Shown: piece by piece, positions 43,130-43,825 of the stretch
Position numbering within the stretch: position 1 is the first letter of the stretch
Layout of the letters: every line of letters begins with the position of its first letter
From: Roseibacillus ishigakijimensis
GTDB lineage: Bacteria; Verrucomicrobiota; Verrucomicrobiia; Verrucomicrobiales; Akkermansiaceae
Length of the DNA stretch: 64,000 nucleotides
Reading direction: 5' to 3'
NCBI RefSeq assembly: GCF_016595415.1
Contig: NZ_JAENIO010000012.1
Location: 1 to 64,000 of the forward strand
Program-made: the position numbers and the translations under genes
The notes under the pieces: model-generated
The model's database searches: none
What the model saw: only the letters and a program-made list of their open reading frames with translations
Told to the model about the DNA's origin: nothing

Positions 43130-43825
43130 CTATTCTTTGGTCAGTTCCGCGATTTTGGCAAAGGCGGCGGCTTGTCCCTTCGCGAGGCTGTTGCCTTCTC
43201 CGTCGACGAGGTGGTATTCCGGCACCGCGTTGGTCGTCTTGTAATCTCTCATCGTGCTGCGGTCGACTTTATCGGGGAGCACGGTGAGCCAGGGGAATGA
43301 TTCTTTCTCGGCCCATTCTTCCGCCGCATCGTCATCTTGGTCGAGGGAGACGTGAATCATCTCCACGTTAGCCAGGTCCGCGATTTCTTTTTTGTATTTC
43401 TCCACCAACTGTGGAGCAGAAGCCCGGCAAGGGCCTCACCAGGAGGCGGAGAAGTAGAGTAGGTAATACTCTGGCTTCTTCTCCATTTCGGCTCGCTTCA
43501 TGCGCTTACCGTCCAAGCGGCTCAAGACCCGGTCCGTCAGCTCTTTGCCGACTTTCTGTTCTTCCAGGTTGACTTCGGAGGCCGGTGCCTCCGCTTCTTT
43601 TTCCGCCCATTCCTGGAGGAAAGTGATGTCTTCTGCCGACAGTTTGTCTTGGATGAAAATCAACTGGCGTCCATTGGTGAGGACAGTGACCTCGCCCGAA
43701 GTGGCGTCGTAGGCTTGTAGCTCGCCTTCAAAAGTGCGCTCGCCGTCCGAGCTGGTCCAAGTCCGGGCCGGGGCCCAGACCAAACCGGCGGCCAGACAGC
43801 TGGCAATGAGGAATTTCGTGCTCAT
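43130..43825 (-). CDS. Candidate selenoprotein: SHD1-thioredoxin fusion with W-U-G-P-C
   Basis: Read as one frame it is 231 residues, with a single in-frame TGA at codon 130 (43438-43436) and a TAG stop. Signal peptide MSTKFLIASCLAAGLVWA is followed by an SHD1-like domain (about 22-72: RTWTSSDGERTFEGELQAYD, then DKLSAEDITFLQEW). A thioredoxin-like domain follows: YLLYFSASW, TGA, G-P-C-R. The TGA therefore replaces the first cysteine of WCGPC in the tryparedoxin/nucleoredoxin style. The later domain is intact (VEMIHVSLDQDDDAAEEW, then FPWLTVLPD). A hairpin with loop AGUUG follows the TGA. A mutant split gene is the alternative. Expected role: a secreted thiol oxidoreductase. Confidence 0.8.
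43400..43416 (-). promoter_or_regulatory. Putative SECIS hairpin after TGA codon 130
   Basis: On the minus strand CTCCAC (43416-43411), loop AGTTG (43410-43406), GTGGAG (43405-43400): a six-bp perfect stem with a five-base loop. The loop G is 27 bases after the TGA. Same AGTT loop start and similar distance as at 17883-17901. Confidence 0.65.

Follow-up and report, generated by a model that had tools for sequence, protein, structure and literature searches.

A putative selenoprotein of Roseibacillus ishigakijimensis that joins an SHD1-like barrel to a thioredoxin domain, and its relatives in the Verrucomicrobiales

When analyzing the window, that is, the whole 64,000-nucleotide stretch of Roseibacillus ishigakijimensis DNA considered here, we found on its minus strand a gene (43825 to 43130) with an in-frame TGA codon that, judged from the sequence, is almost certainly read as selenocysteine (Sec), the product being a thioredoxin-type redox protein. 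The gene encodes 231 amino acids followed by a TAG stop, and its translation reads MSTKFLIASCLAAGLVWAPARTWTSSDG...YLLYFSASW*GPCRASAPQ...AELTKE*. The single internal stop is the TGA at codon 130 (43438 to 43436), directly followed by Gly-Pro-Cys; it occupies the slot of the first cysteine in W-C-G-P-C, which would make Sec130 the first position of a U-G-P-C active site. No second in-frame TGA was found in the translation of 43825 to 43130. The first-pass annotation had described a TGA at the first cysteine position of WCGPC in a frame intact on both sides, and the translation, the homologues, and the purifying selection described below all agree with it. We assign TGA130 to Sec because dozens of relatives share the same codon together with a recoding RNA hairpin. 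Beyond the full-length TAG stop, at approximately 43100 to 43070 on the minus strand, a single-sequence fold gave a weak terminator-like hairpin with a T tract (-12 kcal/mol), which falls below the criteria of the pattern scanner.

The TGA is conserved at one position. In an alignment of 35 homologues from the genus, the family, and the order, 25 sequences have TGA and 10 have a cysteine codon at the same column, and none of the 35 has an in-frame TGA at any other column. The 10 cysteine forms supply the Cys homologues of the fusion whose alignment had been proposed as a check. Across 58 related genomes, the closest homologues each have one internal TGA and more distant ones have none. By hand count, about 40 of 240 sampled genomes of the order contain a close homologue with an internal TGA, at whatever position. 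The carriers include Verrucomicrobiales and Akkermansiaceae metagenome assemblies, members of Roseibacillus, and an isolate, Rubritalea marina DSM 17716 (L059), and TGA is also found in tandem paralogues. Nucleotide comparison with congeners gave a pN of 0.27 to 0.32 against a pS of 0.68 to 0.79 upstream of the TGA, and a pN of 0.21 to 0.29 against a pS of 0.69 to 0.84 downstream of it; the part after the TGA is therefore maintained as protein. Termination at 43436 only, which the first-pass annotation had named as an outcome that would overturn its reading, is at odds with this conservation past the TGA in many genomes. A single base distinguishes the TGA from the cysteine codons TGC and TGT, which would suit a cysteine thioredoxin gene disabled by a nonsense mutation or misread in sequencing, that is, a pseudogene or an assembly artifact. 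However, this TGA is shared by numerous independent genomes, by tandem paralogues, and by the R. marina isolate, and purifying selection continues downstream of it. We give this explanation a negligible probability, and the spread of the same TGA across genera excludes a sequencing error or pseudogene.

The RNA hairpin lies at 43416 to 43400 on the minus strand and consists of a 6-bp stem, CUCCAC/GUGGAG, closed by the loop AGUUG (43410 to 43406). It starts 19 nt past the TGA, with its apical loop 25 nt past the TGA, and folds on its own at -9.1 kcal/mol. Published criteria for bacterial SECIS elements (bSECIS) are a G among the first two bases of the loop with U or G after it, a spacing of 16 to 37 nt, and a free energy of -7.5 kcal/mol or lower (PMC13188914); the hairpin, with G as its second loop base, fits this model. 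Compensatory changes were seen in five of the six stem pairs, with none of 500 shuffles reaching the observed values, and the covariation signal was lost when the partner strand was slid by 1 to 3 bases. A SECIS had been predicted on the minus strand between 43435 and 43395, and the covarying hairpin lies inside that interval. Genome wide, a search with the SECIS model returned a strong match at this locus only and so added no further member to the selenoproteome of the organism.

The hairpin follows the Sec codon through the family. In a table of 108 tree rows, stem and loop were present in 54 of 54 Sec rows of the family and in 0 of 53 Cys rows, a count made with a presence rule fixed after the alignment had been seen and with some rows duplicated between collections. 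The sole exception in the table, L053_U_no_5522, is a member of a different redoxin family. Of the Sec members with a leucine in the loop, 22 of 22 encode it by TTG or TTA, although these two make up about 12% of the other leucine codons in the same genes and are used by 0 of 9 Cys homologues with a loop leucine. The choice of leucine codon is, by these counts, dictated by the SECIS loop.

The genome has what is needed to insert Sec. In the host draft genome (4.14 Mb, 95% complete), we detected tRNA-Sec (66.4 bits against a cutoff of 47, also called tRNA-SeC by ARAGORN) and, all above cutoff, SelB (328 bits), SelA (375 bits), and SelD (366 bits). The sel gene search suggested in the first-pass annotation thus recovered selC, selA, selB, and selD, and the absence of selC or selB, which would have spoken against a selenoprotein, does not apply to this organism. 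A second SelB-like match adjoining selA was rejected as SelB and is an ordinary EF-Tu. The selD gene (G000:C131:31892-32821, L019) has its own in-frame TGA at the catalytic position, in the motif SSCAGUASKL, as in SelD proteins that are themselves selenoproteins. The frame of the thioredoxin gene would also be open, with no SECIS required, if the lineage had reassigned TGA to Cys or Trp independently of selenium. Against such a reassignment, 7 of 8 neighboring genes terminate in TGA, the Sec machinery is complete, the SECIS hairpin shows covariation and accompanies the TGA, and TGC and TGT serve as cysteine codons elsewhere in the family, including for the second active-site cysteine. Because neighboring conserved genes end in TGA, the codon retains its stop function in this organism, and we find reassignment scarcely credible. 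Selenocysteine remains our reading of UGA130: judged from comparative sequence evidence, it is decoded by SelB and tRNA-Sec, directed by the SECIS hairpin about 20 nt downstream within the coding sequence.

Phylogenetic analysis shows that the Sec form is concentrated in the tree. On the maximum-likelihood tree, most Sec members fall within one supported clade, and the Sec/Cys label requires 6 changes against a mean of 36 for shuffled labels. TGA copies were found in 23 of 28 genomes with SelA and in 1 of 30 without it (Fisher's exact test, P = 3e-10, uncorrected for kinship among the 58 relatives). Both the Fisher and the shuffle tests are inflated by relatedness; well-supported branches offer only 3 to 4 phylogenetically independent contrasts, too few for a sign test to attain P = 0.05. 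The lone SelA-negative case (G039) is a weak partial match in an 83%-complete genome. Some Cys forms are nested among the Sec members (L057/L058, L070, and L038) and have lost the loop motif, and the hairpin is also missing in the lineages that reverted to Cys.

Pfam domain assignment and a structure model (mean pLDDT of 91) place two folded domains in the product. The hydrophobic N terminus, recognized by eye and modeled with low pLDDT at residues 1 to 15, is a likely signal peptide (residues 1 to 20; 43825 to 43766). Residues 21 to about 79 (43765 to 43589) form an SH3-like/SHD1-like domain of four strands followed by a helix, with a β-barrel at residues 21 to 60 and pLDDT above 90 over most of the domain. 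Residues 91 to 231 (approximately; 43555 to 43133) adopt a thioredoxin fold. Pfam assigns residues 119 to 212 to Thioredoxin_8 (PF13905; E value of 1.5e-13), and AhpC-TSA (PF00578), Thioredoxin (PF00085), and Redoxin (E value of 5.5e-9) also score above cutoff. Proline 202 is invariant in the alignment at a position consistent with the cis-Pro of thioredoxins, and the nearest solved relatives by sequence and fold are a nematode thioredoxin, tryparedoxins, ResA, and StoA. The SHD1 domain named in the first-pass annotation is supported at the family level, where Pfam SHD1 (PF03983) matches 10 of 26 members (best E value of 7e-7); the window copy taken by itself has no match to PF03983 at an E value of 1 or lower, and its model shows the barrel. 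Homology and the structure model together show a barrel of the SH3-like/SHD1-like type on the N-terminal side of a tryparedoxin/TlpA-like thioredoxin domain.

The best reading of the product is an exported thiol-disulfide oxidoreductase of the UxxC type with an N-terminal SH3-like, SHD1-like barrel, its export and redox role being predicted from these features. After export to the cell envelope, Sec130 would act as the attacking selenolate and Cys133 as the resolving thiol, and a cycle with a selenenylsulfide intermediate may let the pair reduce disulfides or assist in peroxide reduction. SH3-fold domains of the SHD1 type have been described in extracellular proteins of bacteria, and peptide binding is proposed for related domains (PMC5906684); here, the barrel may serve to bind protein or peptide partners or to hold them in position. 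Synteny among 19 loci and the window extends within the genus only and reveals no conserved operon partner, so the gene context gives no hint of the substrate.

The TGA comes after a complete N-terminal domain in the structure model, and these genomes encode many further proteins with SHD1-like domains. Both points would suit a regulated switch at UGA130, in which the functional product at low selenium is mainly an exported SHD1-like protein cut short at the TGA and Sec insertion is minor readthrough. However, protein-level constraint is equally strong downstream and upstream of the TGA, and in the thioredoxin-only TGA paralogues, such as L039 and the second copy of L026, which have little N-terminal domain, truncation would leave almost nothing. 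We consider the switch unlikely. A true bacterial selenoprotein, with Sec at UGA130 inserted through SelB, tRNA-Sec, and the SECIS, and with a barrel and thioredoxin domain predicted to be exported, is as a whole explanation very highly probable.

Several relatives depart from the window gene. Thioredoxin-only TGA paralogues without the SHD1-like domain (L030, L025, L026, L041, L039, and L061 to L065) often adjoin the SHD1-like fusion gene, and several have lipoprotein-like N termini. L035, L036, and the second copy of L030 have Thr for the Trp before Sec (AST-U-GPC or GST-U-GPC), which is unusual for a thioredoxin active site. In L042 (genome G012), a TGA-containing thioredoxin domain follows a different, longer N-terminal region, and the order-wide search counted two TGAs. 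An unrelated redoxin gene in a related metagenome-assembled genome (L053:6800-7200, minus strand) adjoins a homologue of the SHD1-like/thioredoxin gene and has an in-frame TGA in ...LDFWGHWUGPCRAMYPHG..., making it a candidate selenoprotein. A simple-rule scan of the window for other redox motifs containing TGA gave no second convincing candidate. A scan of genome contigs detected relatives with an alignment as the query but none with the window protein alone; plasmid and viral collections gave distant thioredoxin matches only.

We think it likely that these genes represent an undescribed family of tryparedoxin-like, exported selenoproteins of the Verrucomicrobiales that has been duplicated repeatedly, with and without the SHD1-like module, and in which Sec was apparently acquired in one or a few events and was lost to Cys, along with the SECIS, in several lineages, the whole pointing to a selenium-dependent redox system of the envelope. 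If true, this would be a system not known in the Verrucomicrobiales. The switches from Sec to Cys with loss of the SECIS provide a series of natural comparisons from which to judge when an envelope redox enzyme profits enough from selenium to cover its cost. R. marina DSM 17716, being an isolate with a homologue, makes tests in culture feasible.

The first-pass annotation knew of no described selenoprotein class with this arrangement, and that view holds against a 2026 catalogue, NCBIfam, and the open-licence literature. A review of May 2026 lists 119 prokaryotic selenoprotein (sub)families, counting distinct domain architectures or Sec motifs separately, and an SHD1/thioredoxin fusion is absent among them (PMC13188914). 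In NCBIfam release 20, no model reaches its cutoff for the window protein; the TsoB, TUGYCR redoxin, and SelL-related models are far below theirs (NF053656, 18.2 against 100 bits), and no selenoprotein model scores well across the family. Since the curated family models all fall short of their cutoffs, automatic annotation would probably split or truncate these genes at the UGA. In the open-licence literature, we found no paper describing an SHD1-like/Sec-thioredoxin family by title or abstract and no report of these selenoproteins in Akkermansiaceae or other Verrucomicrobiales. The SHD1-like/Sec-thioredoxin family appears to be new, while the mechanism of Sec decoding is already established; the catalogue would gain a well-supported family with a domain architecture that it currently lacks.

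Replacement of Cys by Sec in a UxxC thioredoxin fold is likewise of an established kind. Sec-containing thioredoxin (PF00085, UxxC) is listed as experimentally verified (PMC13188914), and the window protein resembles it in having Sec at the N-terminal cysteine of a WCGPC-type motif, with a UGA and a SECIS just downstream. It differs in being longer and predicted to be exported, in its N-terminal SH3-like/SHD1-like domain, and in a thioredoxin domain that is Thioredoxin_8/tryparedoxin-like rather than a classical TrxA. Redoxin (PF08534, UxxC) and thiol-disulfide isomerase-like (cd02966, UxxC) selenoproteins are also catalogued (PMC13188914, Table 1). They share Sec in the UxxC of a thiol-disulfide oxidoreductase fold, and Redoxin matches the window protein, although Thioredoxin_8 and AhpC-TSA match it better; the catalogue lists no SHD1-like domain for either family. 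In fold and in the arrangement of its active site, the C-terminal domain matches tryparedoxin, ResA, and StoA (PDB 1fg4, 1qk8, 2h1a, and 3erw), which have Cys rather than Sec and no N-terminal barrel and are 18 to 30% identical in structural alignments. The N-terminal domain resembles SHD1 (Slap/SLA1 homology domain 1; PMC5906684) in its small β-barrel and in the consensus R-x-W-T... and LS-x-x-D; unlike the SHD1 proteins described there, it has a window copy below Pfam detection and is fused to a thioredoxin domain with a predicted selenocysteine.
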